A stretch of 35,615 nt of DNA, from positions 1-35,615 of the forward strand of contig CAJWHN010000007.1 of NCBI GenBank assembly GCA_913041085.1. Direction: 5' to 3'. Below, one piece after another: positions 5,901 through 23,120 of this stretch; the first letter of the stretch is position 1; each line of letters starts with the position of its first letter. The position numbers and the translations under genes were made by a program. The stretch is from an uncultured Flavobacteriales bacterium (lineage in GTDB: Bacteria > Bacteroidota > Bacteroidia > Flavobacteriales > UBA7312). The notes under the pieces were generated by a model. It saw only the letters and a list, made by a program, of their open reading frames with translations. It did no database searches and was not told the origin of the DNA.

Positions 5901-8900
5901 CGGAAAATCAAAGCGGTGGTAACTTGATAATGAATTTAGGTAATGTTTCAGAAGACGTTTTGAAAGATGGTTTTAAGAGTTTTGAAAATGGATTGCCTTC
6001 TTCAGATGTTGTAGAAAATGTTGACAATGAAAGCAGTGTATGGGGTCGTATGCCTACTACTTTTGCTTTAACAAATTCCTTTGATGTAGATGCAGAGTCA
6101 CGCCAATATCAAGATGTGGGGCTTGATGGTCTAAGGGATGTTGATGAGCTTACATTTTTTGATACGGCTTATGTTCAAAAAATAGAATCCATTTATGGGG
6201 TCAATAGTAATGCTTACTCCTTAGCATCGACAGACCCTTCTTCTGATAACTACACTTATTTCTTAGGTGATGACTTGGACAGTGAAAGTGCTTCCATTTT
6301 AAAGCGTTACGAGTATTTTTCTGGAATAGATGGCAACTCAGCAATACCTGACCCTACGCCAACTATGGCTACTACTATTCCAAACACAGAGGATATAAAT
6401 TTTGACAATACTCTCAACGAATCGGAAAGTTATTACCACTACAATATCCCCTTATTTCCAGGTATGCAAATTGGAGATAGTTACATTACCGACATACAAG
6501 AAACGGAGGCCAAGACACCAACAGGGGATAAAACGATAAAGTGGTATCAATTTAAAATCCCAGTCCAACAGCCTGACAAAACAGTAGGTTCTATTCGTGA
6601 CTTTAAATCCATACGATTTATTCGTATGCTACTCAAAGATTTTGACCAACCTATCGTAATGCGTTTTGCAACATTAGAGCTCGTTCGTGGTGAATGGCGA
6701 CGTTATAATTTTAGTCTAAAAACTGAAGGAGAATATGTCCCAAATGACAATGCTAGTAATACTTCTTTTGATGTTTCTGTAGTAAACATAGAAGAGAATG
6801 CTGAAAAAATCCCTGTGCCTTATGTCTTACCCCCTGGTATAGAGCAAGAAGTTGATAACACCACGACCTATGTTAGAAGGCAAAATGAACAATCTTTAGT
6901 GCTTAAAGTTTGTGATTTGGAAGATGGAGATTCCAGAGCTGCATATAAAACCTTCAACAACGACTTTAGAACCTATAAGCGACTAAAAATGTATGTGCAT
7001 GCAGAAGCATCTGGCGAAATAGAGTCAGCTCTACAAGATGGTGACTTATCACTATTTATTCGATTAGGCACCGATTTTAACGACAATTATTACGAGTATG
7101 AAATTCCACTAAAGGTTACTCCATGGGGTATTTCTAGACTTGATGACCAACTTATATGGCCATTAGAGAATGAGTTAAATATTACTTTCGAACAACTGCT
7201 CGATGCCAAACAAGAAAGAAACAAAGCAATTAGGGACGGAATACACAGCAGTAGCACCGACCCTTTTTCAGGCACAGACAAGCAAATTACCGTTGTTGGT
7301 AACCCTAATATTAGTATGGTGAAAACCATTATGTTGGGAGTAAGAAATCCAAGAAAAGGGGGTTTTAATTCTACTATCAATGATGATGGAACTTCCAAGT
7401 GTGGAGAGATTTGGTTAAACGAATTACGTCTAACGGACTTTGACGAACGAGGTGGATATGCCGCCAATGGTCGTATTAACGCTAGGTTGGCTGATTTTGC
7501 TAATGTTAATCTTACGGGAAGTATGAGCACTATCGGCTTTGGTTCCATTGACCAAAGTCTTACAGCCAGACAAAAGTACGATGCCTACCAATACGATTTT
7601 TCATCAACTTTTGCCTTAGGAAATTTCTTTGGTGAAAAAGCAGCCATAAAAATACCTATGTATGTTGGTGTTTCTGAGGCTATTCAAAATCCACAATACA
7701 ACCCTCTAGATCCAGATATCACTTTAAAAGTATCTTTAGATGAATTACAATCCAATGAGGAGAAAGAAGAGCTAAAAGAGATAGCGCAAGACTTAACAAA
7801 AAGAAAGTCCATTAACTTTACTAATGTAAGAAAAAACAAATCCTCTTCTTCAGGTAATAAAGCTAAGATTTATGATGTAGAAAACCTATCAGCAACCTAT
7901 TCAAGAAACGAAACTTTTTCTAGAAATGTTAATCTTAAAGAAAGAACAACGGTTAGTACAAAAGCCTCTCTTAATTATACCTATTCTTCAAAACCCAAAA
8001 ACATAAAGCCATTTAAAAAAGTAAAGCTATTTAAGAACAAGTATTTTGCATTATTGAAAGATTTTAACTTTTACACCTTCCCCAAATCAATATCATTTCA
8101 AACAGACTTGGATAGGTATTACAATAAAACACAATTTAGAAACATCAATAACCCTGATTTCACTTTGCCGCCATACTACAACAAGGCATTTGTTTGGAAC
8201 AGAAACTATAGCATTAAATATGATTTAACACGTACACTAAAAACAGAATTTAAGGTGCGTAATTCGGCTAGTATTGACGAGCCAGATGGTGAGTTAGTAA
8301 AATCAGATCCATATTATCAAGAAAAGAAAGACTCTGTATGGAATAATATTCTAAATTTTGGAAGACCCACTTTGTATCATCATTCATTAAATGCGAGTTA
8401 TAATATTCCTTTGAATAAATTCCCCCTCACATCTTGGATAAATCTGAATACTAAATATGTAGCCAATTACGATTGGTTAGCAGCACCATTAAGTTTACAA
8501 AGTTTGGGTAATACCATTCAAAATAGCAATAACAAACAAATTAACTCAACATTTAATTTTGGTCAGCTATACAATAAAGTCCCTTTCCTTAAAAAGTTAA
8601 ATCGAACTGGTCCTAGTGTAGGCGTAAGAGGTAGAGGTTCAAGCAGAGAAACGATTCGATTACCAAATGAAGCCCCCGATACCGTAAAAGTTTCATTTAA
8701 AGAGATTGCAAATACCCTTTTAAGAACAACTTTATTAGTCAAAAACTTATCGATTTCTTACCGACAAAATCAGGGTGTGGTATTGCCAGGGTTTAATAAA
8801 AAGCCTCATTTCTTCGGTCAAGATTGGGATGCTATGGCACCCGGAATACCTTTTGCTTTAGGAAGTCAAAATATTGACATCAGAGAGCTAAGTTCACAAG

Positions 8901-10081
8901 GAGGTTGGCTAACTTCCAATACTAATTTGAATCAATTTTTTAAACTGACCAATAGCGAAACTCTCAACCTTAGAGGAACTATTGAACCTTTTAAAGGATT
9001 TAGAGTAGAGTTAACTGCTAATAGAACAAAAACGAATAATGTTCAAGAAATCTATAGATTTGATTCGGACTTAGGCGACTACGATTCATTTAATAGTATC
9101 GAAAATGGTAGTCACAGCATCTCATTTATTAGTTGGAACTCTGCTTTTATTAAAGACGATGACAACTATTCAAATGCTACCTTTCAGCAGTTTAGACAAA
9201 ATAGAGAAATAATTGCTAATAGACTTGCTGACTCAAATCCATACGACAACAGTATTGTTGATAGTACTGGATATCCATTAGGTTATCAAAGCACCTCTCA
9301 AGAGGTGTTAATACCAGCCTTTTTAGCAGCTTATTCAGGAAAAAACGCTTCTTCGGTAGGCCTCAATAATTTCCCAAATATCCCTTTGCCAAACTGGCGA
9401 ATTAATTTTGATGGTTTGCGTAATCTTAAGTGGATAAAAAAACGAATGAACAACATAGTATTAAGTCACTCCTATCAATCTACCTATAGTGTAGGTAACT
9501 ATGTGACTAGTCTAGACTATGAGGCCGGTTTTGATGAATGGCCAAATGCGATTAATGAGGCTACCTTAAACTATTACGATAAGTACGAAATTAATCAAGT
9601 AACATTACGAGAAAGTCTAAACCCCCTGTTTAAGATAGATATGACTTTCAAAAATAGTATGACCGCTCGTCTAGAAATAAAAAAAGAAAGAACTTTAAGT
9701 TTAGGCTTGAGTAATAATCAACTCACGGACCGTTCTTCTGATGAATGGATAATAGGAACAGGATACAGAATTAAAGAGTTAGCCTTTAACGTAAGAGCAG
9801 CAGGCAGACAAAGAAAAATAAGCTCAGATTTAGACTTAAAATTAGATTTTTCATTAAGAAGTAATAAGGTTGTAATTAGAAAAATAGAAGAAAACCAAGA
9901 GGAAATAACTGGCGGTAATAGTGTAATTACGTTGAAGTTTACGGCCGACTATGTTGTTAGTAGCCGATTTAATCTACGTTTATTCTATGATAAGGTAATG
10001 ACAAACCCTTATGTTTCCAATACCTTCCCTTCAGCTATTACAAATGGTGGATTTAGTGTTAGATTCACCTTAGCACAATAG
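2936..10081 (+). CDS. sprA: SprA/Sov, outer-membrane translocon of the type IX secretion system
   Basis: SprA (Sov in Porphyromonas) is a giant beta-barrel that carries type IX secretion substrates across the outer membrane and is required for flavobacterial gliding. The 2381-residue length fits the family. It begins with a signal peptide (hydrophobic core WCFFLFLVLSKFSFS, predicted cleavage near SFSQ) and is rich in aromatic/Asn beta-strand repeats. Recognisable SprA segments include GTAYIDDFEASSTGIDI, KRGPYNF and the C-terminal strand ending in RFTLAQ. The start is GTG at 2936; the next in-frame Met lies after the signal peptide, so GTG is needed to keep it. It follows ruvA by 29 bp. The order maeB-ruvA-sprA-gcvH is, to my knowledge, recurrent in Flavobacteriia. 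Other T9SS core genes (gldKLMN, porV) are not in the window. Confidence 0.96.
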   Translation: MFQNKAIHKQALWCFFLFLVLSKFSFSQSTNDSLIFKMPETNPWDNPLDNENSGFYLNPPANLQPQLEYDPESKLYSVEQKINGFRLSNPTFLSAEEYDNYNSRQSISDYWKEKTSNPSLSGDNTNKGPLSIDIGGEIFDKIFGNSTVDIRPQGSAELIFSIKHNKTENNALPIDKQSNTSFDFKQKIQMNVIGKIGDKLQLNTNYNTEAIFDFDNKIKLEYEGEEDEIIKKIEIGNVGLPLNGTLISGSQSLLGLKTQLQFGRATVTTIFSQQKSNSKVIDVEGGAQTTEFDIYADQYETNKHFFLSHYFKSRYNEAMSQLPFINSPVNITKIEVWVTNKTGTVEDTRNILAFLDLGESQADIYNTVLFSENADFSYPDNDNNNLYQQMLAEGEPLRNINQVNSIFGTATYPNFLGSQDYEKLERARLLSPTEYTFHPQLGYISLNNIIGPDEVLAVAFQYTIGNELYQVGEFSSNGPSAPSSLFVKLLKNLSFSPQLPNWDLMMKNIYSLGAYNVSPTEFYLDVVFENTRDNGTITNYIPEENLTEKPIINLLRLDQLNAQQERKADGIFDFLPGITIITSNGKIIFPVREPFGEDLRDKFSNNDIANNYVYDVLYDSTLTIAQQFPEYNKFRIKGSYQSESGAEIYLGVFSIEQGSVVVTAGGLRLEEGQDFTVNYSMGKVNIINDGILMSGTPIRISVESNTFGLQQKTLVGTHVDYRISDDFMLGGTILNLTEKPYTKKVNSGDEPISNTIWGLDGTYRRESNLLTKIVDFLPLLETKEKSMLTAQGEFAHLIPGHQRAIGENGTAYIDDFEASSTGIDIKNPGAWFLASLPNDPDLFPESALGNQSPRLGNLNSGANRALLSWYNIDPVFYRNTNNTPRHIADDEVQLSNHNVREVLEKEVFPNRDPQYATQVSNLPVFNLSYNPSKRGPYNFDTENITTSGLLLNPENRWAGIMRKLETTDFELQNIEFVEFWIMDPFNDDSENQSGGNLIMNLGNVSEDVLKDGFKSFENGLPSSDVVENVDNESSVWGRMPTTFALTNSFDVDAESRQYQDVGLDGLRDVDELTFFDTAYVQKIESIYGVNSNAYSLASTDPSSDNYTYFLGDDLDSESASILKRYEYFSGIDGNSAIPDPTPTMATTIPNTEDINFDNTLNESESYYHYNIPLFPGMQIGDSYITDIQETEAKTPTGDKTIKWYQFKIPVQQPDKTVGSIRDFKSIRFIRMLLKDFDQPIVMRFATLELVRGEWRRYNFSLKTEGEYVPNDNASNTSFDVSVVNIEENAEKIPVPYVLPPGIEQEVDNTTTYVRRQNEQSLVLKVCDLEDGDSRAAYKTFNNDFRTYKRLKMYVHAEASGEIESALQDGDLSLFIRLGTDFNDNYYEYEIPLKVTPWGISRLDDQLIWPLENELNITFEQLLDAKQERNKAIRDGIHSSSTDPFSGTDKQITVVGNPNISMVKTIMLGVRNPRKGGFNSTINDDGTSKCGEIWLNELRLTDFDERGGYAANGRINARLADFANVNLTGSMSTIGFGSIDQSLTARQKYDAYQYDFSSTFALGNFFGEKAAIKIPMYVGVSEAIQNPQYNPLDPDITLKVSLDELQSNEEKEELKEIAQDLTKRKSINFTNVRKNKSSSSGNKAKIYDVENLSATYSRNETFSRNVNLKERTTVSTKASLNYTYSSKPKNIKPFKKVKLFKNKYFALLKDFNFYTFPKSISFQTDLDRYYNKTQFRNINNPDFTLPPYYNKAFVWNRNYSIKYDLTRTLKTEFKVRNSASIDEPDGELVKSDPYYQEKKDSVWNNILNFGRPTLYHHSLNASYNIPLNKFPLTSWINLNTKYVANYDWLAAPLSLQSLGNTIQNSNNKQINSTFNFGQLYNKVPFLKKLNRTGPSVGVRGRGSSRETIRLPNEAPDTVKVSFKEIANTLLRTTLLVKNLSISYRQNQGVVLPGFNKKPHFFGQDWDAMAPGIPFALGSQNIDIRELSSQGGWLTSNTNLNQFFKLTNSETLNLRGTIEPFKGFRVELTANRTKTNNVQEIYRFDSDLGDYDSFNSIENGSHSISFISWNSAFIKDDDNYSNATFQQFRQNREIIANRLADSNPYDNSIVDSTGYPLGYQSTSQEVLIPAFLAAYSGKNASSVGLNNFPNIPLPNWRINFDGLRNLKWIKKRMNNIVLSHSYQSTYSVGNYVTSLDYEAGFDEWPNAINEATLNYYDKYEINQVTLRESLNPLFKIDMTFKNSMTARLEIKKERTLSLGLSNNQLTDRSSDEWIIGTGYRIKELAFNVRAAGRQRKISSDLDLKLDFSLRSNKVVIRKIEENQEEITGGNSVITLKFTADYVVSSRFNLRLFYDKVMTNPYVSNTFPSAITNGGFSVRFTLAQ

Positions 10082-10896: not shown

Positions 10897-10914
10897 CTCA
10901 AGTAACCCAATTTT

Positions 10915-11692: not shown

Positions 11693-12442
11693 ATGATCTT
11701 TAATATCACTAGTTTTTTTGATTCCACATATCTTAAAACAAAAGAACAATCAGGTCTCAGTGACCAAGAAGAAAAACAAGTTGTTAAATCTTTTGTCCTA
11801 GAGGCTGTTGATCATCGTTTCAAATTGGTTATGATTCGTTCAAGCCATATTGCTTTTGCAAAAGAAATAATAGCCAATAGCGGTAGTAATGTTTTGGTTG
11901 GAACTGTTATTGATTTTCCTAATGGAAATTCATTAACAGAAAGCAAATTAGATGAGATTAGTAAAGCTATCAATTTAGGTGCTGACGACATTGATGTTGT
12001 TATTAACTATGAGCTTTTCAAAAAAGGAGAATACGATTATATTGTCAATCAAGTTAAAGAATGTACTGCTTTGTGTTTGTCCAATAATAAGACTATAAAA
12101 TGGATAATAGAATCAGCGGCATTAAGTGATAATGAAATAATTGATATATGTCAGCTTATTAGAGATGTTGTCATAGATAATTTTGGTCAAAATAATGCTC
12201 ATAATGTATTTGTAAAATCATCGACAGGTTTTTATGTTAGCCCTGAATCAGCACCAAACGGAGCAACAGTGTCAGCTATAAAACTAATGTTAGATAATTC
12301 GTCACCTTTGCTAGTAAAAGCATCTGGAGGAATCCGTAATATTGAAGACTTTAAGACAATGGTAGATTTGGGTGTAAAACGCATTGGAACATCGTCTGCA
12401 CTTTCTATTTTACAAGCAAAACAATCCGATTCAAACTATTAG
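11693..12442 (+). CDS. deoC: Deoxyribose-phosphate aldolase
   Basis: Class I aldolase that splits 2-deoxyribose-5-phosphate into acetaldehyde and glyceraldehyde-3-phosphate in deoxynucleoside catabolism. The 249-residue protein has the TIM-barrel signatures: D101 in DDIDVVINY, the Schiff-base lysine K175 in FVKSSTGF, and K209 in VKASGGIR. The start ATG follows the tonB terminator by about 60 bp; a -7-like TATTTTTA with one mismatch lies between. Only 5 bp separate its stop from the TTG start of the flippase, so it may head the same transcript as the glycan genes, although its job is unrelated to polysaccharide synthesis. Confidence 0.95.
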   Translation: MIFNITSFFDSTYLKTKEQSGLSDQEEKQVVKSFVLEAVDHRFKLVMIRSSHIAFAKEIIANSGSNVLVGTVIDFPNGNSLTESKLDEISKAINLGADDIDVVINYELFKKGEYDYIVNQVKECTALCLSNNKTIKWIIESAALSDNEIIDICQLIRDVVIDNFGQNNAHNVFVKSSTGFYVSPESAPNGATVSAIKLMLDNSSPLLVKASGGIRNIEDFKTMVDLGVKRIGTSSALSILQAKQSDSNY

Positions 12443-12447: not shown

Positions 12448-13782
12448 TTGAATAAAATAAAATCATATCTATCAAAGTACTCAGGAGATGTTCATTTTAT
12501 TGAGCTTATCAAGGGGGCGTCTAGCACTTTTATCTTGAAAATTGTAGGCTTACTAGTTGGGTATATTCTTGCTATTTTCATTACTAACAAATTTGGAGCT
12601 TTTGTATTTGGTCAGTATGTAACGGCCTTATTAATAGTTGAAATTTTAAGTATCATTTCAAGGTTAGGCATAGACACCGCTTTAGTTCGATTCATCTCTA
12701 GATATGTGCACAATGGAGCCTCTCAATTAATCAATAAACTTTTTTTTAAATCAATAGCTATTGTCACTTTAGCTGCTATTATTTTCACCTTACTATTATT
12801 GTTTTTTTCTGCCTATATCGCTGATTTTATGAATTTTGACGAGGAGTATCTATTAATCGTATCCTTTTCCTTCATTCCATTAGTATTGTTTCATATGAAT
12901 GTTCAAGCCATTCGAGGGTTGAAGAAAATGCTTTCTTTTTCTTTTTTGAATAATGTTGCGATAACCCTATTCACTTTCATTATTATGGTGGTATTGGTGT
13001 CGTATACTTCTTCTGAAAAACTTCCTATTTACGCCTATGTACTGAGTGTTTTTATAATGACATTTTCTTCTTATTTTTTATGGTTCTATCATAAAACAAG
13101 GCTTGAAAACTCCAAGGTCATCAATAGTGAGGCAGAACTCACTACAAAAGCATTGTTTAAGGTGTCTATCCCATTGTTGTTGGGACAATCAATGATGCTT
13201 ATAATGGGAAAAGTAGATTTGTTTATGTTAGCAAATATGACCTCTTCAGACCAAGTAGGAATTTATAATATAGCCTTAAAGTTATCTATGTTAGCATATA
13301 TGGGACTTATGGCTGTTAATAGTATTGCTGCACCCAAATTTTCAGAAATTCATTCTTCAGGAGATATTGATGCTCTTAAAAAAATAGTTCAACAATCAAC
13401 TAAAACCATATTTTGGGTTACTGTTCCAGTAATAATATTATTTTTATGTTTTCCTAAATCTATTTTAAGTGTATTTGGTGAAGAATTTAAGTTAGCAGCT
13501 ATGGCGTTAATTATCTTATCAATAAGTAAAATGTTCAGTGCGATTTCCGGCTCTGTAGGTACATTTTTACAAATGGTTGGCAAACAAAATTTATTTCAGA
13601 ATATACTTATCCTTACAGCCATAATCAATATCGGTTTAAACTATATTTTAATTCCAAAACATGGTGTAGATGGAGCAGCTTTTGCTAGTGCTATTAGTGG
13701 AGTGATATGGAATGTTCTTATGATAATTTACATCAAGAAAAACTTTGGGTTTTATTCAATTTATTTCCCAGGTATTAGATAA
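12448..13782 (+). CDS. Polysaccharide flippase (Wzx/MATE-like, oligosaccharide flippase family)
   Basis: A 444-residue protein with about 12-14 hydrophobic helices and the layout of the polysaccharide transporter (RfbX/Wzx) family. Recognisable parts are GFAFVFGQY-like GAFVFGQYVTALLIVEILSIISRLGIDTALVRF near the N-terminus, SIPLLLGQSMMLIMGKVDLFMLANMTSSDQVGIYNIALKLS in the middle, and the C-terminal HGVDGAAFASAISGVIWN. It would move lipid-linked glycan units from the inner to the outer leaflet of the inner membrane. The start is TTG at 12448; the next in-frame Met is more than 120 residues in and would delete the first helices, so TTG is the best choice. Its stop overlaps the ATG of the next sulfotransferase by one base (TAATG). 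Confidence 0.88.
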   Translation: MNKIKSYLSKYSGDVHFIELIKGASSTFILKIVGLLVGYILAIFITNKFGAFVFGQYVTALLIVEILSIISRLGIDTALVRFISRYVHNGASQLINKLFFKSIAIVTLAAIIFTLLLLFFSAYIADFMNFDEEYLLIVSFSFIPLVLFHMNVQAIRGLKKMLSFSFLNNVAITLFTFIIMVVLVSYTSSEKLPIYAYVLSVFIMTFSSYFLWFYHKTRLENSKVINSEAELTTKALFKVSIPLLLGQSMMLIMGKVDLFMLANMTSSDQVGIYNIALKLSMLAYMGLMAVNSIAAPKFSEIHSSGDIDALKKIVQQSTKTIFWVTVPVIILFLCFPKSILSVFGEEFKLAAMALIILSISKMFSAISGSVGTFLQMVGKQNLFQNILILTAIINIGLNYILIPKHGVDGAAFASAISGVIWNVLMIIYIKKNFGFYSIYFPGIR

Positions 13783-14708
13783 TGAATTATCCTAACTTAT
13801 ATATCGTAGGAGCGCCAAAGGCAGGTACGACTTCTTTGTACCATTATCTTAGTCAACACCCAGATATTACGATACCTGATAAAGAGCCACGATTTTTTAT
13901 AAAGGATAGTATTCATAACATTTCTGAGGTAGACCCAATCAAACCCTATTTATTGAGAAGTTCAGTGCTTGATGAACTTGCTTACACCAATCTTTATGCC
14001 AATAAAAGTGAAAAAATAAAGTGTGACGCTAGCACACAATATTTATACCATCATTCTGAAGTAATCCCTAAAATAAAACAACTGAAAGATGGTAAGTCAA
14101 CAAAAATTTTAATTCTTTTAAGAAATCCTATTGATAGAGCATTTTCAAACTATTCTCATAATTATTCAACTTTTGAAAACTTGGATTTTAAACATGCACT
14201 TGAGCAAGAGTCAGAGCGAATTTCAAAAGGGTTTAATTCCTTTTGGCACTATAAAGGCTTAAGCACATATGCTGATTCGGTAAAAGCATATAAAGACGCT
14301 TTTAAGGAAGTAAAAGTTGTTTTTTTTGAAGATTTTGTAAAAGATATTGATAAGTCATTAGTCGATATTTTTAATTTTTTAGAAGTTGACAATAGCTTTA
14401 AAGTGTCACATTTTATGATAAATAAAAAAAGTACGGGTGCGCCAAAGAGTAAAAAATTAAATACAATTCTTCAATCATCTTCTAAGTTTAGTCTTATTAA
14501 AAAGATACTTCACAACACTATTGGAGAGGAAAAAACAAAGTTGATTAGAGAGTTGATTATGCGTAAAAATTTATCTAAGTCAAAAATTTCTTTAGATGAA
14601 TCTTTGAAATCCAATTTAGAATCCTATTTTGTAGAAGATATTGCGCAGCTCAAAAAAATCTTGCCTGAGCATAATATAGGCTGGTTGAATAATGGAAAAA
14701 ATTCATAA
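13782..14708 (+). CDS. PAPS-dependent sulfotransferase (first of two)
   Basis: A 308-residue cytoplasmic sulfotransferase of the carbohydrate/heparan type. It has the 5'-phosphosulfate binding loop GAPKAGTTSLYHYL (from residue 10) and the 3'-phosphate binding stretch ILLRNPIDRAFSNYSHNY (R114, S122). It would transfer sulfate from PAPS to a sugar hydroxyl. Its place between a flippase and an acyltransferase suggests the acceptor is the surface glycan made by this locus, probably at the lipid-linked stage; the exact acceptor cannot be read from sequence. It shares the same N-terminal layout as the gene at 18531 and is probably a diverged paralogue. It overlaps the acyltransferase gene by 17 bp. 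Confidence 0.88.
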   Translation: MNYPNLYIVGAPKAGTTSLYHYLSQHPDITIPDKEPRFFIKDSIHNISEVDPIKPYLLRSSVLDELAYTNLYANKSEKIKCDASTQYLYHHSEVIPKIKQLKDGKSTKILILLRNPIDRAFSNYSHNYSTFENLDFKHALEQESERISKGFNSFWHYKGLSTYADSVKAYKDAFKEVKVVFFEDFVKDIDKSLVDIFNFLEVDNSFKVSHFMINKKSTGAPKSKKLNTILQSSSKFSLIKKILHNTIGEEKTKLIRELIMRKNLSKSKISLDESLKSNLESYFVEDIAQLKKILPEHNIGWLNNGKNS

Positions 14709-15285
14709 TACATATCGCAGAGTAAGAGATAAGATTTTCACTTTTCTTTACCGCTTTTCATTCAAGGAATTGGCATATAAATCCACACTATCTATGCCCT
14801 TTTCTGTTGAAGGGGCAAGATATATTGCTATCAAAAAAGAAGTTTTTATTAAACCTAATGCTTGGTTTTTGACATTAAACCCTTCCGATTCAACTTCTAA
14901 AGACACTAAACTTTCTATAGATGAAGGTACTTATATTGGAAGGAATGCTCATATCGTGTCTTTGAAAAGTATACGAATTAGCAAGAATGTATTGATTGGT
15001 GATAACGTATATATCGCTGATAATTTTCATCGTTTTGATAGAGTTGATGTGCCCTATAAAGAGCAAGGAGTAGGCTTTAAGGCCGAGGTAGAAATTGGTG
15101 ATGGCACATGGCTTGGAGAAAACGTTTGTGTTATTTCATCTAAGATAGGTAAACAATGCATTGTAGGAGCAAATTCTTTGGTTATTCATGATGTGCCTGA
15201 CTATTGTATGGTAGCGGGTTCTCCTGCTCGAATTATCAAGACCTACAACCACATTAAACAAAGTTGGGAAAGGACCAAAGATTAA
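14692..15285 (+). CDS. Hexapeptide-repeat acyltransferase (LbetaH, WcaF/Maa-like)
   Basis: A 197-residue protein with left-handed beta-helix repeats: GTYIGRNAHIVSLKSIRISKNVLIGDNVYIADN, then VEIGDGTWLGENVCVISSKIGKQCIVGANSLVIHDVPDYCMVAGSPARIIK. The last part is the usual ending of O-acetyltransferases in polysaccharide loci. It likely adds an acetyl or other acyl group from acyl-CoA to a sugar of the glycan. The start at 14692 lies within the end of the sulfotransferase; the stop is 2 bp before the ATG of the polymerase-like gene. Donor and acceptor are inferred. Confidence 0.85.
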   Translation: MEKIHNTYRRVRDKIFTFLYRFSFKELAYKSTLSMPFSVEGARYIAIKKEVFIKPNAWFLTLNPSDSTSKDTKLSIDEGTYIGRNAHIVSLKSIRISKNVLIGDNVYIADNFHRFDRVDVPYKEQGVGFKAEVEIGDGTWLGENVCVISSKIGKQCIVGANSLVIHDVPDYCMVAGSPARIIKTYNHIKQSWERTKD

Positions 15286-15287
15286 AC

Positions 15288-16511
15288 ATGAAAATAGTAT
15301 TAAAACATCTCAAATTTTCTTGGTTGCCCATGCTTTTTTTGGTACTGACTGCGGGTAGTATGCTCTTCATATTTTTTAGAAAAGAGATGCTTTATTTTGT
15401 GTTTTTTCTATTCTCATCACTATTTGTCATTAAGAATCTTTACAAAAGAGAACTTCTAATTTTTGTACAGCTTTTAGTATTGTTTTTATCCTTACTTATT
15501 ATCAACTACTTATTTTCATTATCACCTCAATCAACACAAAAGTTATTGGCCAATATTGTCATTTTCACTACTTCTATTTTTTCAGCAATGTATTATTGTA
15601 GAGAAGAAAATAAAAAACTATTTATTCCTAATCTTTATTTGGTTTTAAAAATAATTTTAATTCACGCCCTTATTAACTTCTTTATTTTTCCTTTTGTAAA
15701 ACCTTTTTTAATTGAGATTAGTAATAGTCGTTATGACTGCGTTACTTTTCTAAACGTTTTCTTTTATCTTAAGTATACGCACTCATTTTCTGTATTGGGT
15801 ATTGAGCTCGTTAGAAATCAAGGTATTTTTTGGGAACCTGGTGTCCTTCAGATTTTTCTAAACCTATTGCTCTTTATCCTCTCTTTTGTAAAAAAGAAAA
15901 GGGGTTTAATATTTTGGTTGACTATCCTAGCTATTTTTACAACTTTTTCAACTACTGGATTAGTTGTAATGTTTGTCCAACTTCTATTGTCATTTAGTTC
16001 CGAGATAAGAAAAAATATTTTGTTTTTACCCATAGCAGCATTTATGACTTTATTGGTGTATTACATTACAGCTATTAATATTTCTGACAAGCTTAATGGT
16101 GAGGGACAATATTCTTTTCAAGCTCGATTTTTTGATTTAGTTCAGCCCCTATATATGGTTGCTGAAAACCCCATGACTGGCGTTGGTTTGGACGATGAAC
16201 AATTTATTAAAACTCGCCAAAAAACTAATTTTTCATTAAACTTAGAAGCTATTGATTTTTCAAATGTAAATGACAAGGGCTCGACTAACTCTATTATGTT
16301 TTTCTTGGCTGCTGCAGGGATACCATTTACCTTGATTCTTTTAGTGATGTTATATTATCAGGATTTTGTTCCTGAAAAGCGCAAATGGTTTTTCATTTTC
16401 GTTATAATTTCATTAATGACAGAGCCAATTATGCTCAGGCCTTTTTTCCTTACTTTTGTAATGTCAGGTGGTATTTATATAATCAACAAGTTTAGATGGA
16501 AAATATATTAA
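15288..16511 (+). CDS. Wzy-like O-antigen polymerase/ligase family membrane protein
   Basis: About 407 residues, with some ten or more hydrophobic helices and a larger extracytoplasmic loop near the C-terminal third. The conserved-looking GIFWEPGVLQIFLNLLLF and ENPMTGVGLDDEQFI segments resemble O-antigen polymerases and ligases (the F-WEPG and G-G stretches are often kept in exopolysaccharide Wzy proteins). In a Wzx/Wzy pathway it would join repeat units in the periplasm. The ORF track starts at a TTG at 15264 inside the acyltransferase; I prefer the ATG at 15288, just after the acyltransferase stop, which gives the short basic N-terminus MKIVLKHLKF before the first helix. It overlaps the epimerase gene by 16 bp. 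Polymerase or ligase cannot be decided here. Confidence 0.72.
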   Translation: MKIVLKHLKFSWLPMLFLVLTAGSMLFIFFRKEMLYFVFFLFSSLFVIKNLYKRELLIFVQLLVLFLSLLIINYLFSLSPQSTQKLLANIVIFTTSIFSAMYYCREENKKLFIPNLYLVLKIILIHALINFFIFPFVKPFLIEISNSRYDCVTFLNVFFYLKYTHSFSVLGIELVRNQGIFWEPGVLQIFLNLLLFILSFVKKKRGLIFWLTILAIFTTFSTTGLVVMFVQLLLSFSSEIRKNILFLPIAAFMTLLVYYITAINISDKLNGEGQYSFQARFFDLVQPLYMVAENPMTGVGLDDEQFIKTRQKTNFSLNLEAIDFSNVNDKGSTNSIMFFLAAAGIPFTLILLVMLYYQDFVPEKRKWFFIFVIISLMTEPIMLRPFFLTFVMSGGIYIINKFRWKIY

Positions 16512-17629
16512 TTTCTGGAGGAGCAGGATTTATTGGCTCTAATTTAGCATTGAAGCTTGTTAGTCTTGGACACAATGTAAGGGTTTTAGACAACCTTTCG
16601 CCCCAAATACATACCAATTCCAAAGAAAATTCTCAGTTATATCAGTCCATCAAAGGAAAAGTTACTTTTATAAACGGAGATGTAAGAAATAGAAAAGATT
16701 GGCAAAAGGCTATTGCCAATAGTACTGTTATTGTACACTTGGCTGCAGAAACTGGTACAGGTCAGTCCATGTATCAAATTGAAAAATATGTGCAAGTGAA
16801 TTGTGGAGGGACAGCCATAATGTTAGATGTATTAGCCAATGAGAAATATACTGTTAAAAAAGTAGTTGTTGCCTCATCTCGTGCAATATATGGTGAAGGG
16901 AAGTACCATTGTGAATCGCATGGCGAGGTATATCCTGATGAAAGAGAAGATACTCAAATGTCAAACGGGCAATTTGAGCCATTATGCAGTATTTGCAAAC
17001 AACCTTTGGGTATGTTAGCAACTGATGAAGATTCAAAGATTCATCCGTCTTCTATTTATGGAATTACTAAAAGTGACCAAGAGCAAATGATTCTTGTGGC
17101 TTGTAAGAGTTTAGGCATTTCCGCTATTGCTTTGAGGTATCAAAATGTCTATGGGCCAGGGCAGTCATTAATTAATCCTTACACTGGAATTTTATCTATT
17201 TTTTCTACTCGCATATTAAATAATAATCCCATAAATATTTTTGAAGATGGCAAGGAAAGTCGTGACTTCGTATTTATCGATGATGTTGTCAATGCGACTG
17301 TTTTAGCTATACAAGACAATAAACTTAAGTCGTGTTCATTGAATGTAGGTTCAGGAGTTTCGACTACGGTTCAGACGGTTGCAGATAGTCTAAAAAAACT
17401 ATATCAATCTGATGTGGACATTAAGGTTTCGGGAAATTATAGGCTTGGCGATATTCGACACAATAAAGCTGACATTAGCAAAATAAAAAAACTCTTAGGT
17501 TTCAGTCCAAAAGTGTCATTTGATGATGGGCTAAAACAATTTGTAGATTGGGTTAAAAATCAAGAAGTCAATTCTGATAATTATGAGCAGTCTATAAATG
17601 AAATGAAAGATAAAGGGCTAATGAAATGA
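16496..17629 (+). CDS. NAD-dependent epimerase/dehydratase (extended SDR) with CxxC insert, dTDP-rhamnose 4-epimerase-like
   Basis: A 377-residue nucleotide-sugar epimerase. The NAD-binding motif is GGAGFIGSNLALKL (residues 8-21), the catalytic Tyr-Lys pair is Y188/K192 in SSIYGITK, and RYQNVYGPGQS follows. Before the Tyr-Lys pair there is an insertion, FEPLCSICKQPL, with C164 and C167. I recall a similar Cys pair in SDR proteins annotated as dTDP-L-rhamnose 4-epimerases, so that activity (making dTDP-6-deoxy-L-talose) is possible, but UDP-sugar 4-epimerase activity is not excluded. It would supply a donor for the neighbouring glycosyltransferases. It overlaps the next gene in an ATGA junction. 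Confidence 0.82.
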   Translation: MENILISGGAGFIGSNLALKLVSLGHNVRVLDNLSPQIHTNSKENSQLYQSIKGKVTFINGDVRNRKDWQKAIANSTVIVHLAAETGTGQSMYQIEKYVQVNCGGTAIMLDVLANEKYTVKKVVVASSRAIYGEGKYHCESHGEVYPDEREDTQMSNGQFEPLCSICKQPLGMLATDEDSKIHPSSIYGITKSDQEQMILVACKSLGISAIALRYQNVYGPGQSLINPYTGILSIFSTRILNNNPINIFEDGKESRDFVFIDDVVNATVLAIQDNKLKSCSLNVGSGVSTTVQTVADSLKKLYQSDVDIKVSGNYRLGDIRHNKADISKIKKLLGFSPKVSFDDGLKQFVDWVKNQEVNSDNYEQSINEMKDKGLMK

Positions 17630-18528
17630 AAATAGGTATTGTAACAGTCACTTTTAATAGTTCTTCTGTATTAGACGATTTCTTCATTTCTATTGAACAA
17701 CAAGACTATTCAGATTTTAATCTTTATATCATCGATAACAACTCTGTTGACGATACACTTTCAAAAGTAGACAGTTGGGCCTTTAAATCAAAAGTGCTTT
17801 TAAAAAACACCAATAACTTAGGTGTTGCAGCAGGCAATAATCAAGGGATTAAGTTGGCACTTAAAGACGGTTGCGATTTCGTATTGTTATTAAACAACGA
17901 TACTATTTTTGAAGATAAGTTGTTGTCAAAACTAGTCGAGACCTACAACACGTATGGCTCATCAATTGTAGTTCCAAAGATGAATTATTTTTCTCCTTCC
18001 AATATGATTTGGTATGCTGGAGGCTTTTATAACAGAAAAAAAGCATTTTTAAATTTTCATCGTGGGCAAGGAGAGATTGATAACAACCAATACAATGTTG
18101 ACGATAAGATAGAGTATGCCCCAACATGTTGTGCCTTAATACATCAATCTGTTTTTGAAGATATTGGTTTGATGGACGAGAAGTACTTTGTGTATTTTGA
18201 TGACACCGACTTTTTCTTTCGAGTTTTAAAAGATGGAAAACACGAAGCTAGGTACAGACACGACATTCATTTTTTACACAAAATAGGTAGTCTTACTAAT
18301 TCTAGAAATAAAGATAAACCAATAAAATATGGAGAATTCTTTATAAAGCAGAATAGTAAAAATCACGTCTATTTTTTAAGAAAACAAAAAACACTAATTG
18401 CATATATCAATTTAATTTATTTGTGGTTTTATTTGACAAGTCGTTTTTTTATAAGTCGTAGGTTTGAAAAAAAATGGAGTATCTTTTACCTCATACAAAC
18501 GTCCTATTTTCAAGGATTTAAAATGTAA
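17626..18528 (+). CDS. Family 2 glycosyltransferase (rhamnosyltransferase-like)
   Basis: A 300-residue GT-A fold enzyme. It opens with IGIVTVTFNSSSVLDDFFISIEQQDY and YIIDNNSVDDT, then has GVAAGNNQGI, and an FVLLLNNDT metal/nucleotide site (about residues 85-93, NND in place of the usual DxD). GLMDEKYFVYFDDTDFFFRV matches the C-terminal acceptor/base region of WbbL/RgpF-like GT2 enzymes. The C-terminus has a hydrophobic and basic stretch (AYINLIYLWFYLTSRFF) likely to touch the membrane. It probably adds one sugar, perhaps a deoxyhexose given the adjacent epimerase, to a lipid-linked precursor in the cytoplasm. The start overlaps the epimerase stop by 4 bp, and 2 bp separate it from the next sulfotransferase. 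Confidence 0.87.
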   Translation: MKIGIVTVTFNSSSVLDDFFISIEQQDYSDFNLYIIDNNSVDDTLSKVDSWAFKSKVLLKNTNNLGVAAGNNQGIKLALKDGCDFVLLLNNDTIFEDKLLSKLVETYNTYGSSIVVPKMNYFSPSNMIWYAGGFYNRKKAFLNFHRGQGEIDNNQYNVDDKIEYAPTCCALIHQSVFEDIGLMDEKYFVYFDDTDFFFRVLKDGKHEARYRHDIHFLHKIGSLTNSRNKDKPIKYGEFFIKQNSKNHVYFLRKQKTLIAYINLIYLWFYLTSRFFISRRFEKKWSIFYLIQTSYFQGFKM

Positions 18529-18530
18529 TA

Positions 18531-19379
18531 ATGAAAGTAAATACATTCATTGTAGGCGCACCAAAAGCAGGAACCACTTCCTTGCACCATTATCTCAATC
18601 AGCATACTGATGTGAGTATGAGTAGTGTGAAAGAGCCTAACTTTTTTTCCTCAAAAGAAGTAGAGTCTTTGTTCTATAATTCCAAATGTATTGACGATAG
18701 CAATGACTATCACAAATTATTTTCCAAAGAAAAAAGACAAATTAGAGGAGAAGCTAGCGTATCTTATTTGTTTTATGAAAATGTGCCTAAGCGTATTTAT
18801 GATTATAACTCTGAAGCTAAATTTATCATAATGCTTAGAGAGCCTATTGAACGTGCATTTTCTCATTATTTGATGGATTGTCGTTTGGGTTTTTGCTCAG
18901 AAAAATTAGAAGACATCATAGCTAATCCACAAAGCTATCCGCAATATTTTCAACAATACTTAGAGTTAGGCAATTATTATTCGCAAATAAAAAGGTATCA
19001 AGATATCTTTGAAAAAGAACAGCTATTGGTTATTTTTTATGAAGACTTCAAGACTAATACCGAAAAAGTGATGAATCGTGTTTTTAGCTTTTTAGAAATA
19101 GAACAACAGGAGATAGATTTGAGTATTAAAAATCCTTTTTTATCACCTTCTAACACATTAATTTATAAGTTGTATAAATTCAACATTATAAGAAAAGGAG
19201 TAAAGACTATTATGCCTGAACGTCTTTTATCATTAATTAGGTCCAAGTATTTTTCAGCTAAGTCCAAGCCGATGCTTTCCAAGGCTACAGAGCAACAGTT
19301 GAAAGTATTTTACAAGTCCGATGTTTTTCAGCTTGAAAAACTCTTAAATACAGATTTAGCTAGATGGAACATAAAATAG
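18531..19379 (+). CDS. PAPS-dependent sulfotransferase (second of two)
   Basis: A 282-residue sulfotransferase with FIVGAPKAGTTSLHHYLNQH (5'-phosphosulfate loop from residue 9), KEPNFFS, and IIMLREPIERAFSHYLMD (3'-phosphate site, R103). The N-terminal 35 residues closely resemble those of the sulfotransferase at 13782 (APKAGTTSL then HYL-QH), while the C-terminal halves differ, which would fit different acceptor sugars or positions. It sits between a GT2 and a GT4 gene and overlaps the latter by 16 bp, so it is part of the same glycan operon. PAPS synthesis genes (cysD/N/C) are not in the window. Confidence 0.88.
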   Translation: MKVNTFIVGAPKAGTTSLHHYLNQHTDVSMSSVKEPNFFSSKEVESLFYNSKCIDDSNDYHKLFSKEKRQIRGEASVSYLFYENVPKRIYDYNSEAKFIIMLREPIERAFSHYLMDCRLGFCSEKLEDIIANPQSYPQYFQQYLELGNYYSQIKRYQDIFEKEQLLVIFYEDFKTNTEKVMNRVFSFLEIEQQEIDLSIKNPFLSPSNTLIYKLYKFNIIRKGVKTIMPERLLSLIRSKYFSAKSKPMLSKATEQQLKVFYKSDVFQLEKLLNTDLARWNIK

Positions 19380-20485
19380 CTATTATTGACCCCGTAGGAA
19401 TAAAGAGTGGAATGAATCATTACGATACATTTCTGTGTACTTCATTGGATAAATTAGGGATTGATACTTATATCTACTCTAATTTTAATGTGAAATCCGA
19501 AACTGTCGTTTCTCAGCCAGTTTTCGGAACTGTTTTTAAAAATAAACTTTCCCAAACGTTCAATTTTATTAAGGGAATGTTCAAGTCTGTTATGGATTGT
19601 AGAAGAAACAAAATCAAAACAGTTATTATTCACGTTTTTTCTACACACAATATGGCAATAATGACTTACGCTATTAGCAAATTGTTTGGGCTAAAAACGA
19701 TAACCATTTCTCATGATGTTTTTTCATTTACTGATCAAGATAGCAAATGTTATCATCACTTAATTTACAACCGTTGGTCAGATAGAATAGTGGTTCATAA
19801 TAGTTACTCTTTAGATCATTTGCTACCTCAAATAGAATCCAAGATGCATTCTAAAGTAAGTGTGTTAAAACATGGCTCATTCGTTGGTTTGCCAGATAAT
19901 TCAATAAGCAGAAAGTCGGCTAGAAAGGCATTGAATTTGGACGAGCAAAGGAAATATATTTTGTTTTTTGGACGCATAAAACCCAATAAACGTTTAGACC
20001 TTATCCTTAGAGCGATGCCTAATATTGATTCCTCAATACACCTTATTATTGCTGGTCATTTAGGAAAAGATGACTTTAACAAGTACCAATCTATCATCGA
20101 TGAATTGGATTTGTCAAGTAGATTAGTTTTAGAAATTAACTACATCAGCGAAGAAAAAAGAGAATTGTATTTCAAGGCAACCGATTGTTTAGCCTTGCCC
20201 TATGAGCTCATTTTTCAAAGTGGTGTTTTATTGATGTCAATGTCCTATGGTTTGCCAGTGGTAGCTTCACAAATACCTTCTTTTGAAGAAGTTATTGAAG
20301 ATGGAAAAAACGGTTTGCTTTTTGAAAAAGGTAATGTAGACGATTTGGCAAAGCAGTTGAATGCTTTGATGAATAATAAGGATTTAATGAATGAAATACC
20401 ACAAAATGCAATTAGCAATATGAAAGAAAACTATTGTTGGGACTCTATTGCTAAGGGCTATGTTGAGATAATAAAAACTCTCTAA
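19364..20485 (+). CDS. Family 4 (GT-B) glycosyltransferase
   Basis: A 373-residue GT-B enzyme. The C-terminal nucleotide-sugar domain shows ILFFGRIKPNKRLDLILRAM, IIAGHLGKDDF, the PYELIFQSGVLLMSMSYGLPVVAS stretch and FEEVIEDGKNGLLFEKGNVDDLAKQLNAL, which contains the E-x7-E type region of GT4 enzymes. The N-terminal domain has HDVFSFTDQDSKCYHHLIYNRWSDRIVVHN, resembling GT4 enzymes of exopolysaccharide loci. It would extend the lipid-linked glycan in the cytoplasm. It is the last gene of the overlapping run; the next gene has its own promoter. Confidence 0.88.
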   Translation: MEHKIAIIDPVGIKSGMNHYDTFLCTSLDKLGIDTYIYSNFNVKSETVVSQPVFGTVFKNKLSQTFNFIKGMFKSVMDCRRNKIKTVIIHVFSTHNMAIMTYAISKLFGLKTITISHDVFSFTDQDSKCYHHLIYNRWSDRIVVHNSYSLDHLLPQIESKMHSKVSVLKHGSFVGLPDNSISRKSARKALNLDEQRKYILFFGRIKPNKRLDLILRAMPNIDSSIHLIIAGHLGKDDFNKYQSIIDELDLSSRLVLEINYISEEKRELYFKATDCLALPYELIFQSGVLLMSMSYGLPVVASQIPSFEEVIEDGKNGLLFEKGNVDDLAKQLNALMNNKDLMNEIPQNAISNMKENYCWDSIAKGYVEIIKTL

Positions 20486-20502
20486 GGTTTGTTTTGTTTA
20501 CT

Positions 20503-20533
20503 TTTGTTTTGACTTTTAGAGAAACTATTTTTG
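20503..20533 (+). promoter_or_regulatory. Full Bacteroidetes promoter (-33 TTTG, -7 TATTTTTG) before the Wzi/RemB-like gene
   Basis: TTTG at 20503-20506, a 19-nt spacer and TATTTTTG at 20526-20533 match the sigma-ABfr consensus in both elements and in spacing. Transcription would start about 10 nt before the ATG at 20550. A second -7-like TACTTTTG lies at 20499-20506. This is the best promoter in the window. Confidence 0.65.
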
Positions 20534-20549
20534 AATAAATAATTTACAT

Positions 20550-22130
20550 ATGAAGAAATACGTATTATTTTTTGTGTTATCAAAGTTCTCACTATTAATG
20601 ATAGGGCAAACCAATGCACCTCTAAGTCATTCTTATTATTCTTATTTAGAAAAGGATATGCATGACATAGGCGTTTCAAAACACACCTCATTTAAGCCTT
20701 TTTTATATTCTACTGATGACATCATATTTTACAATTCTTTTAAGCCAATTGTTTCAAAAAAGTCACTCATTCATAATTTTCTTAACTCCAATTTACTCAG
20801 TATTGAGCATGCAGATTATAGTTTTGTACTTAACCCTCTTTTTCATTTTGAGATAGCTGAAGATAATGATAGAAGATATGTCAATACAAGAGGGATTGAG
20901 GTGAAAGGTAGGGTTGGTGAAAAGTTATCTTTTTATTCATCTTTCTATGAAAATCAAATGGTACTTCCAAACTATTTAGAAGGCTATGTGAGAAAGAATG
21001 AGAATGTTTTGCCTGGTCAGGGCATTGTAAAGTATTACCCCTTTCTTAATGAGGGCATTATGGATTTTTATTACGCTACTGGCTACATAAATTATGATAT
21101 TAATCGCTTTTTTGATGTACAGTTAGGTCATGGCAAACATTTTATTGGCGATGGTTATCGTTCTATGATGCTTTCCGATAATTCATTTAATTATCCTTAT
21201 TTGAAAATAACTACGGATGTATGGAAATTTAAGTACGTCAATCTATTTTCTTATTTTCAAGATATCAATTTCGACATAGATGCGCCAGATATAAGTAAGT
21301 CAAAATTTAGTGCCATTCATTACTTAAGCACTAATATAGGTGAACGTTTGAATATTGGTATTTTCGAATCCATAATGTTGGGCGAAGATAGTTTAGGCAA
21401 TGTGTTTGATATCAACTACATGAACCCTATAATCTTTTACAGACCTGTAGAATACTCCATTGGCTATTCAAGACAAGGTAACGCATTGCTAGGTTTGTCA
21501 TTAAAGTATAAGATAACATCTACTTCTCATTTGTATGGTCAAGTAGTACTTGATGAGATTGCAATAAGTGATTTTAGAGCTCAAAATGGGGCGTGGCGTA
21601 ATAAATATGGAGGACAAGTAGGTATGAAATATTTCGAAGCCTTTGGGCTTGAAAACCTAACTCTACAATCTGAACTTAACTTTGCTCGACCATTCACGTA
21701 TTCTCACTTCAATCCCATACAAAATTACGCTCATTATGCTCAGCCTTTGGCACACCCTTTAGGAGCAAGTTTTTTAGAAAATGTAAGTTTTATTCGTTAT
21801 AGAAAAGATAGATGGACGGCGGATTTAAAATTGATACACGCTAAATATGGCGGAGAAATTGCTGGAGATACTACAAATTATGGTAGTGATATTTTTTTGC
21901 CCTATGACGAGAATTATAAAGAGTTTGGCAATGATATTGCCCAGGGAAACACTTCTAATTTACAAATCATAGACTTGAGAGTCGGCTATATTATCAATCC
22001 AAAAACAAATATGAAGATAGAGTTAGGTCTTACTAATAGGTCGTTAAGTGATAGAAATAGCACCGCTGACAATCAGTACCTTTTCTTCTCCTTCAAAACC
22101 GATTTACAGAATTTTTATTACGATTTTTAG
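20550..22130 (+). CDS. Outer-membrane beta-barrel protein, Wzi capsule-assembly / RemB-like
   Basis: A 526-residue secreted protein: signal peptide MKKYVLFFVLSKFSLLMIGQ, then a short helical-looking segment and many alternating aromatic beta strands to the end (C-terminal LFFSFKTDLQNFYYDF with a terminal aromatic residue). The region HTSFKPFLYSTDDI, the GHGKHFIGDGYRSMMLSDNSFNYPYLKI motif and FYRPVEYS resemble Bacteroidetes Wzi-type (capsule assembly) barrels and proteins annotated as gliding motility protein RemB. In Gram-negative capsules, Wzi is a lectin barrel that anchors polysaccharide at the surface. Its place right after a glycan synthesis operon, with its own promoter, supports a surface attachment role. 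The family call is from memory of motifs and is uncertain in detail. Confidence 0.6.
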   Translation: MKKYVLFFVLSKFSLLMIGQTNAPLSHSYYSYLEKDMHDIGVSKHTSFKPFLYSTDDIIFYNSFKPIVSKKSLIHNFLNSNLLSIEHADYSFVLNPLFHFEIAEDNDRRYVNTRGIEVKGRVGEKLSFYSSFYENQMVLPNYLEGYVRKNENVLPGQGIVKYYPFLNEGIMDFYYATGYINYDINRFFDVQLGHGKHFIGDGYRSMMLSDNSFNYPYLKITTDVWKFKYVNLFSYFQDINFDIDAPDISKSKFSAIHYLSTNIGERLNIGIFESIMLGEDSLGNVFDINYMNPIIFYRPVEYSIGYSRQGNALLGLSLKYKITSTSHLYGQVVLDEIAISDFRAQNGAWRNKYGGQVGMKYFEAFGLENLTLQSELNFARPFTYSHFNPIQNYAHYAQPLAHPLGASFLENVSFIRYRKDRWTADLKLIHAKYGGEIAGDTTNYGSDIFLPYDENYKEFGNDIAQGNTSNLQIIDLRVGYIINPKTNMKIELGLTNRSLSDRNSTADNQYLFFSFKTDLQNFYYDF

Positions 22131-22170: not shown

Positions 22171-22223
22171 TAAAGCCTATGAAAATATAAAAAGTGGTAA
22201 ATTTATCCCCTAGATAAAAATTG

Positions 22224-23120
22224 ATGGTTTTTGTCTTAAAATATTCTAAATCAAACACTTACAAATTGTCTATAAACGACGTTTTACAGCTTTCAAAAAT
22301 CAGATTGACTACGAGTGTGGTATTTTCTGCCATTGCGGGCTATTTTATTGCTGGAGGAATATTCCAGTCCTTTGATTTGATAGCTCTTATTTTGGGTGGT
22401 TTTTTAGTCGTTGCATCATCGAACGGTTTCAATCAAGTTATAGAAAAAGACTTGGATAAACTGATGAAACGAACTGAAGACAGGCCCTTACCAAAACAAA
22501 GAATGACCACCAATCAAGCACTAATTTTGTCATTAGCGATGGGTCTTTTAGGCGTTTTTTTCTTATTTTCAATTAATTTTTACTCTGGTTTTTTTGGTTC
22601 GCTATCAGTCTTCTTGTATGTGTTAGCTTACACCCCCTTGAAACGGATTTCATCTTTTTCAGTTTTTGTAGGAGCTTTTCCTGGTGCTATTCCTTTTATG
22701 TTAGGTTGGGTAGCAGTAACCAACGATTTTGCTATTGAAGCAGGTATCCTATTTGCTATACAATTTATCTGGCAGTTTCCTCATTTTTGGGCTATTGCTT
22801 GGGTTTCTGACGAAGACTATAACAAAGCAGGTTTCAAAATGCTTCCCGGTGCGAAAGGAAAAGCTACTGCTTTCAAAACATTGATTTACACCTTATTTTT
22901 AATTCCCCTATCTATATTACCCATATTTGGATTTGCAGGTGAGTTAAAACTTTCATTATTAGCCTGTTTATTGGTAGTGATTTTGGGCTTATGGTTTTTT
23001 ACAAAGTCCGTAATGTTATTCAAAACACTCTCCGATGAAGATGCTAAGAAGCTCATGTTTGCTTCCTTCATATACCTTCCTTTATTACAATTAATTTACG
23101 TTACAGATAAACTATTATGA
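22224..23120 (+). CDS. ctaB: Protoheme IX farnesyltransferase (heme O synthase)
   Basis: Attaches a farnesyl group to heme B to give heme O, needed for heme-copper oxidases. About 298 residues with roughly nine membrane helices. The prenyltransferase Asp-rich motifs are visible: NGFNQVIEKDLDKLMKRTEDRPLP (N-x3-E-x-DxxxD-x2-M-x-RT-xRPLP) and the second one around VSDEDYNKAGFKMLP; YTPLKR is also present. The ORF track begins at TTG 22221, but the ATG at 22224 is the natural start. It overlaps the next COX3-type gene by 4 bp (ATGA), the usual order of flavobacterial oxidase clusters. Also called cyoE. Confidence 0.95.
   Translation: MVFVLKYSKSNTYKLSINDVLQLSKIRLTTSVVFSAIAGYFIAGGIFQSFDLIALILGGFLVVASSNGFNQVIEKDLDKLMKRTEDRPLPKQRMTTNQALILSLAMGLLGVFFLFSINFYSGFFGSLSVFLYVLAYTPLKRISSFSVFVGAFPGAIPFMLGWVAVTNDFAIEAGILFAIQFIWQFPHFWAIAWVSDEDYNKAGFKMLPGAKGKATAFKTLIYTLFLIPLSILPIFGFAGELKLSLLACLLVVILGLWFFTKSVMLFKTLSDEDAKKLMFASFIYLPLLQLIYVTDKLL

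Follow-up and report, generated by a model that had tools for sequence, protein, structure and literature searches.

The window analysed here is a stretch of 35,615 nucleotides from an uncultured Flavobacteriales bacterium (assembly GCA_913041085.1, contig CAJWHN010000007.1; designated contig C7 of genome G000 below). The assembly comprises 1.46 Mb and is 95% complete. The near relatives L017 (CAJWWC01) and L018 (PAYK01) are Flavobacteriales metagenome-assembled genomes (MAGs), whose marine habitat is assumed from isolate names. Between positions 12448 and 22130, the window carries nine open reading frames, all on the + strand, that very probably build a sulfate-decorated sugar polymer for the surface of this small-genome bacterium; versions of the cluster, with sulfate-donor genes alongside, occupy the same chromosomal site in two oceanic families from which such polymers are not known. 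A Wzx-type flippase gene (12448..13782; PF01943, Polysacc_synt, 8.4e-21) is followed by the gene for ST1, a 3'-phosphoadenosine-5'-phosphosulfate (PAPS)-dependent sulfotransferase with a predicted glycan-sulfotransferase fold (13782..14708; PF00685/PF13469; PDB entry 3rnl, 1.8e-39), and the gene for a left-handed beta-helix O-acetyltransferase (14692..15285; Hexapep) that resembles WbbJ (NF007240, 2.3e-27, below cut-off). Next come genes for a Wzy-like polymerase with a Wzy_C domain, not distinguishable from a WaaL-type ligase (15264..16511; PF04932, 2.8e-8, over the cut-off), a nucleoside-diphosphate (NDP)-sugar epimerase/dehydratase with a Cys-containing insert (16496..17629; PF01370, 2.7e-47; PDB 4zrm, 1.3e-40) and a GT2 glycosyltransferase (17626..18528; PF00535, 1.4e-20; TIGR01556 rhamnosyltransferase, 3.6e-17, below cut-off). 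ST2, a second PAPS-dependent sulfotransferase (18531..19379; PF00685, 2.6e-21; 3rnl, 2.3e-36), a GT4 glycosyltransferase (19364..20485; PF00534, 5.2e-28) and a 526-aa outer-membrane beta-barrel protein of Wzi/AlgE-like architecture (20550..22130) complete the run.

The initial annotation had described eight overlapping or nearly touching genes followed by the barrel, and this layout was borne out. From wzx through the barrel gene, the spacings are -1, -17, -22, -16, -4, +2, -16 and +64 nt. The eight genes from wzx to the GT4 gene (12448-20485) are thus connected by overlaps of 1-22 nt or a 2 nt spacing, and the barrel gene lies 64 nt further on. Upstream, deoC (11693..12442, + strand; deoxyribose-phosphate aldolase, TIGR00126, 1.8e-44, above cut-off) ends 5 nt before wzx starts. 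This means that the run truly begins at deoC, upstream of the start assigned initially. The order deoC-wzx-ST1-act-wzy-epi-GT2-ST2-GT4-barrel-ctaB is identical in four of four congeners and in G006, and G009 displays it from ST1 on, where its contig starts. Conserved synteny, proposed as a check at the outset, was therefore found. The gene overlaps are conserved, too. Pairwise ratios of nonsynonymous to synonymous substitutions (dN/dS) of 0.05-0.17 indicate purifying selection on every gene of the run. Fixed order and dN/dS values mean that the run is not a chance arrangement. A variable capsule cassette swapped within the genus is ruled out by the fixed order in all congeners. Some genes change faster than those next to them (between window and G001, identity is 64.5% for ST2 and 87% for GT2), which may reflect changing acceptors. 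Scans for promoters and terminators yielded no excess over shuffled sequence.

Both sulfotransferases exceed the Sulfotransfer_1 cut-off of 22 bits (ST1: 52.6 bits, 6e-14; ST2: 76.6 bits, 3e-21). Each combines a 5'-phosphosulfate loop containing the Lys with the 3'-phosphate Arg/Ser site (R-x-P-x-x-R-A-x-S). The motifs are GAPKAGTT at residue 10, KEPRFF at residue 34 and RNPIDRAFS at residue 114 in ST1, and GAPKAGTT at residue 9, KEPNFF at residue 34 and REPIERAFS at residue 103 in ST2. Among 40 aligned sulfotransferases from the clusters, the loop Lys and the 3'-phosphate Arg (K13 and R114 of ST1) are present in all 40. KEPxFF retains its Glu in 39, the remaining sequence having an X, and RAxS its Ser in 38. 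Pfam scores and PAPS-site motifs together support the earlier claim of two PAPS-dependent sulfotransferases. In PDB sequence searches, both proteins matched the uncharacterised sulfotransferase 3rnl end to end and, after it, heparan-sulfate (HS) 3-O- and N-sulfotransferases. ST2 was compared by sequence, and the fold comparison was made on a model of ST1 (predicted local distance difference test, pLDDT, 86.8). The nearest fold is that of 3rnl (target-based template modelling score, TMt, 0.89), followed by the HS 3-O-sulfotransferases and NST1 (0.57-0.71), whereas SULT and TPST enzymes reached about 0.35-0.52. Hence, the predicted ST1 fold is nearer to glycan sulfotransferases than to SULT or TPST. 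A fit to non-carbohydrate sulfotransferases, named initially as grounds for dismissing a sulfated glycan, was not observed: both the sequence matches and the ST1 model favour glycan sulfotransferases. The proposal that ST1 and ST2 differ in their C-terminal halves had to be abandoned, as their alignment covers almost the full length at about 31-35% identity, and each matches 3rnl from end to end. A relationship confined to the N-terminus is excluded by this full-length homology. PAPS is a cytoplasmic sulfate donor. Since both enzymes depend on it and no signal peptide was seen in either by eye, sulfation is placed in the cytoplasm. ST1 and ST2 might modify two positions or two different sugars. 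Elsewhere in the genome, sulfotransferase-like proteins of 255 and 313 aa are encoded by two solitary genes (G000:C3:32631-33005, L003, and G000:C17:10294-10704, L004); in the surroundings read, no neighbouring glycan genes were recognised.

In relatives, the cluster occurs at the same site together with genes for PAPS synthesis. G007 and G008 contain a divergent cysN-cysD-cysC set, followed by deoC-cysQ-wzx-ST and further cluster genes. G005 has the same order, divided over two contigs. In a second family (f11), this order is found after sprA-gcvH-tonB, with a cysNDC set in G019, G031, G042 and G105 and partial sets in others. deoC adjoins cysQ-wzx in f11 as well as in the g2/g4 relatives. 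The f11 clusters encode 3-4 sulfotransferases of the ST1/ST2 type, usually accompanied by one Sulfotransfer_3 protein, and contain gmhA/gmhB-like and wecA genes ahead of the barrel gene; overall, other genera and the second family have 2-5 sulfotransferases at the site. By tree and position, ST2 is orthologous to the downstream sulfotransferase of the f11 clusters (clade 100/99). Therefore, at least this part of the site has a common ancestry. Across the phylum, few genomes (19 of 346) contain ST2 relatives at E <= 1e-20. In 33 genomes, the gene for an adenosine-5'-phosphosulfate (APS) kinase lies <=15 kb from a sulfotransferase gene, with a typical distance of 3.0 kb, and sulfotransferase, APS kinase and barrel occur together in 20. 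Across 398 Flavobacteriales genomes, sulfotransferase and APS kinase co-occur (108/145 vs 36/253; Fisher p = 7.5e-34, with relatedness ignored). The conservation across families and the PAPS cassette are a strong addition to the first reading of the locus.

Further observations were made in these families. Between the epimerase and Sulfotransfer_3 genes, f11 and G008 encode u454, a conserved protein of some 450 aa (L103:12768-14108, L101:14503-15828, L091:14639-16003). Pfam yielded no match for the copy from G008, nor did NCBIfam for that from G031. Many genomes carry a separate copy of an f11 sulfotransferase gene outside the cluster with one in-frame TAA (e.g. G042:C1:78337-79221, G084:C57:3839-4723, G195:C45:28882-29769); possibly, the alignment overruns the stop codon or these copies are decaying. 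Family f8 (L107, L108; G294, G325) has other Wzx/Wzy loci with several sulfotransferase-like genes beside a Wzc-like gene, and therefore sulfated glycan loci may have more than one origin in the order.

The initial annotation had asked for cysD, cysN and cysC in the genome as a source of PAPS. These genes were not found in searches of the window's own assembly and of G004, and cysQ was likewise not seen in G000. A CysH-like PAPS_reduct protein is present there, and the congeners G001-G003 encode APS kinase. In the window's genus, cysC, cysD, cysN and cysQ lie outside the glycan locus throughout. A second glycan locus was found in G001-G003 and G006, with the order wecA/upxY/regulator/ugd/(epimerase)/DUF2061/cysC/cysD/cysN, and cysQ follows cysN in G001 and G002. 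The CysQ, CysC, CysD and CysN proteins of relatives score above curated cut-offs. Contig C85 of G000 (3,330 bases) comprises this second locus as far as codon 41 of the epimerase gene. Its collinearity with G003:C2 is 92.5%, and it stops in the gene preceding DUF2061-cysC, about 1.2 kb short of the cysC position in a sister genome. Similarly, contigs end inside ugd in G004, inside cysD in G003 and inside cysN in G006. Since the second locus breaks assemblies, a gap is a simpler explanation for the missing cysCDN genes than loss, and likelier. The genes asked for are thus present in congeners and, inside the cluster itself, in other genera; in the window's own assembly, where they were not found, a contig ends just before the expected place. 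The interruption of the UpxY-ugd-cysCDN locus in four assemblies (G000:C85, G004:C45, G003:C2, G006:C21) fits a strain-variable island, and gene-absence calls there are unreliable. In the second locus of f1, cysC is immediately preceded by the DUF2061 gene, which encodes a membrane protein and adjoins cysC in G355, too (L094:5892-6284, L095:7835-8227, L096:1040-1447, L097:2406-2804, L110:14818-15273). A function linked to PAPS or sulfate is possible.

The barrel gene is widespread: homologs occur in 60 of the 109 genera of the order. G011 and G147 have the order sprA-gcvH-vanZ-deoC-barrel-ctaB without any glycan gene at the site. This order fits the spacing in Flavobacterium johnsoniae, where sprA is Fjoh_1653 and remB Fjoh_1657 (PMC4572689). 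By synteny, and not by direct sequence comparison, the barrel is the counterpart of F. johnsoniae RemB. In the window, the site is flanked on the left by sprA (2936..10081, +), the putative gene for the translocon of the type IX secretion system (T9SS) and gliding, named by its size and the sprA-gcvH-vanZ-deoC-remB order. On the right lies ctaB (22221..23120, +), assigned to haem o synthase by sequence and order, which is the right flank in f1, f3 and f14. Here, a TonB-like gene is inserted between vanZ and deoC, and the glycan genes are located between deoC and remB. A long open reading frame antisense to the tonB-like gene (10878-11558, - strand) recurs in relatives and is most likely a by-product of the conserved coding strand, not a gene. 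The predicted barrel fold resembles AlgE, OprD and Wzi (2ynk), with modest confidence (pLDDT 67.6; query-based score, TMq, to 2ynk 0.47; root-mean-square deviation 9.9). The window barrel does not match the Wzi family PF14052, which is matched by one of 20 barrel homologs (1.6e-6), and its PDB sequence search gave no match. The earlier designation as a RemB/Wzi-type barrel is supported by synteny and, with modest confidence, by the predicted fold. A barrel specific for the glycan locus is ruled out, since the barrel is found in 60 of 109 genera and, in G011 and G147, occupies the site without glycan genes. The barrel is a resident of the site; either the glycan genes were acquired between deoC and remB, or other families have lost them. 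Consequently, the term 'minimal locus' for a coupling of sulfation to anchoring is not supported: the barrel is widespread and older at the site, and initiating transferase and Wza/Wzc are encoded elsewhere in the genome.

These remaining parts have been located. A WecA-like transferase is encoded on contig C85 of the window's genome, and the wza and wzc genes are adjacent on G000:C51. The components of a Wzx/Wzy system (Wzx, Wzy, initiating transferase, polysaccharide co-polymerase (PCP), outer-membrane polysaccharide export protein (OPX)) are therefore complete genome-wide and not within the locus. A sulfated heteropolysaccharide, probably acetylated as well, is the probable product of the locus, assembled and exported via the Wzx/Wzy route. 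The WecA-type transferase would start a lipid-linked repeat unit, which would be extended by GT2 and GT4, with the epimerase setting the NDP-sugar. ST1 and ST2 would sulfate separate acceptors of the growing unit from PAPS at the cytoplasmic side, and the hexapeptide enzyme would acetylate it. After flipping by Wzx and polymerisation by the Wzy-like protein, the polymer would be exported by the unlinked Wza/Wzc pair. RemB, the resident Wzi/AlgE-like barrel, may retain it on the outer surface, although the mode of attachment is a proposal. CysDNC would supply PAPS and CysQ would clear 3'-phosphoadenosine-5'-phosphate (PAP); their genes lie in the cluster in relatives and would have moved to the second glycan locus in the window's genus. 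Gene content, conserved order, PAPS-site motifs, predicted fold and PAPS linkage in relatives were read from the sequences, and it is from them that we infer sulfation of the product. The order of steps, the linkage and the role of RemB are likewise put forward as proposals. The sulfated surface glycan suggested initially is supported by the glycan-type sulfotransferases, the conserved synteny and the PAPS linkage in relatives.

Several points weigh against this interpretation. The organism is known from assemblies alone. The locus itself encodes no initiating transferase and no PCP/OPX pair (Wza/Wzc), the PAPS genes lie outside it and were not seen in the window's own assembly, the barrel model is of modest confidence, and the Fisher test ignores phylogeny. 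Furthermore, the Wzy_C domain would fit an O-antigen ligase, too. As this domain is common to Wzy and WaaL, the product might be a sulfated O-antigen or a lipid-linked glycan of the A-type lipopolysaccharide (A-LPS) kind. In that case, the Wzy_C protein would polymerise the chain or ligate it to lipid A-core, a possible anchor for T9SS cargo. The lack of Wza/Wzc in the locus and its position beside the T9SS translocon gene sprA, at a site conserved over families, would suit such a product. However, Wzx and Wzy co-occur with the Wzi/AlgE-like barrel, and an OPX/PCP pair is present elsewhere in the genome. The sprA site of G011 and G147 has no glycan genes, and so the link to T9SS is one of neighbourhood only. 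Altogether, an O-antigen or A-LPS in place of a capsule or exopolysaccharide is unlikely.

The Sulfotransfer_1 family spans many acceptors, and with two solitary sulfotransferase-like genes elsewhere in the genome, ST1 and ST2 could be thought to use an acceptor other than the glycan of this locus (lipid, protein or secreted small molecule) and to be mere passengers in the operon. This is very improbable, given that 2-5 sulfotransferases recur among wzx, wzy and glycosyltransferase genes in two families, the gene overlaps are conserved and the modelled ST1 fold is nearest to glycan sulfotransferases. Finally, the glycan might be made and left unsulfated, with the sulfotransferases as relics, if the PAPS genes not found in G000 and G004 were truly lost. 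True loss was judged unlikely once the contig ends had been mapped: the contigs of both assemblies end inside ugd or just past it, right before the place of cysC in G001-G003 and G006. ST1 and ST2 have dN/dS values of 0.08-0.16, and the CysH-like PAPS_reduct protein is retained. An unsulfated product is the least probable of these alternatives and has a very slim chance of being correct. A sulfated polysaccharide exported by the Wzx/Wzy route is therefore preferred.

Algae and animals are usually named as the makers of marine sulfated polysaccharides; where bacteria are named, these are almost exclusively cyanobacteria. Bacteroidota are usually regarded as consumers of sulfated glycans, and the Bacteroidetes MAGs of a Shark Bay survey yielded no sulfotransferase. 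A close known parallel is synechan of Synechocystis 6803, a product shown to be sulfated, whose xss cluster is likewise of the Wzx/Wzy exopolysaccharide type with two sulfotransferase genes (PMC8205485). That cyanobacterial cluster is plasmid-borne, encodes eight glycosyltransferases and its own XssQRS regulators, and the text read reports no PAPS genes in it (PMC8205485). The window-type cluster, by contrast, is chromosomal, syntenic across two families and located beside RemB, with cysNDC/cysQ in relatives. According to the synechan paper, no sulfated polysaccharide had been reported from other bacteria (PMC8205485). Sulfated capsules of Gammaproteobacteria have now been described (PMC11641403, PMC11766843). 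The capsule locus of Vibrio sp. KMM 8419 combines sulfotransferases with cysN/D/C, which its authors regard as the hallmark of sulfated polysaccharide synthesis; in contrast to the window, it uses ABC-transporter export, comprises 80 genes and is strain-specific, and no similar loci were found by the authors in public genomes (PMC11641403). The capsule locus of Cobetia marina KMM 1449 likewise contains cysN/C, cysD and cysQ with sulfotransferases, but depends on an ABC transporter and a Kdo-primed lipid route (PMC11766843). Regarding this hallmark, the cluster type has PAPS synthesis genes inside it in G007, G008 and f11 and, over two contigs, in G005; the version of the window's genus does not. 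F. johnsoniae RemB shares the site, four loci downstream of sprA as in G011 and G147, but is listed as adhesin-like for gliding, and the f3 genomes read have no glycan genes beside it, whereas the window RemB ends a glycan operon. With E. coli Wzi (2ynk) and Pseudomonas aeruginosa AlgE, the barrel shares predicted architecture and no sequence-level match. In the open-access literature searched, no paper was found that describes such a sulfated capsule or sulfotransferase cluster in Flavobacteriales or Bacteroidota. Hence, the kind of system is already known from synechan and the Vibrio and Cobetia capsules, and the Bacteroidota case is unreported in the literature searched.

If two families of Flavobacteriales share a conserved cluster that brings its own PAPS supply, some of these bacteria would be producers of sulfated glycans. 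The cluster would also offer defined sulfotransferases to assay and would open the role of RemB-type barrels to experiment. More tentatively, and with somewhat more doubt than confidence, an old, vertically kept sulfated polysaccharide could be a core trait of small-genome oceanic Flavobacteriales, encoded by cysNDC-deoC-cysQ-wzx-STs-wzy-GTs-wecA between sprA and remB, with RemB as its surface receptor. If this were true, the open ocean would have an unrecognised source of sulfated glycans in such bacteria.

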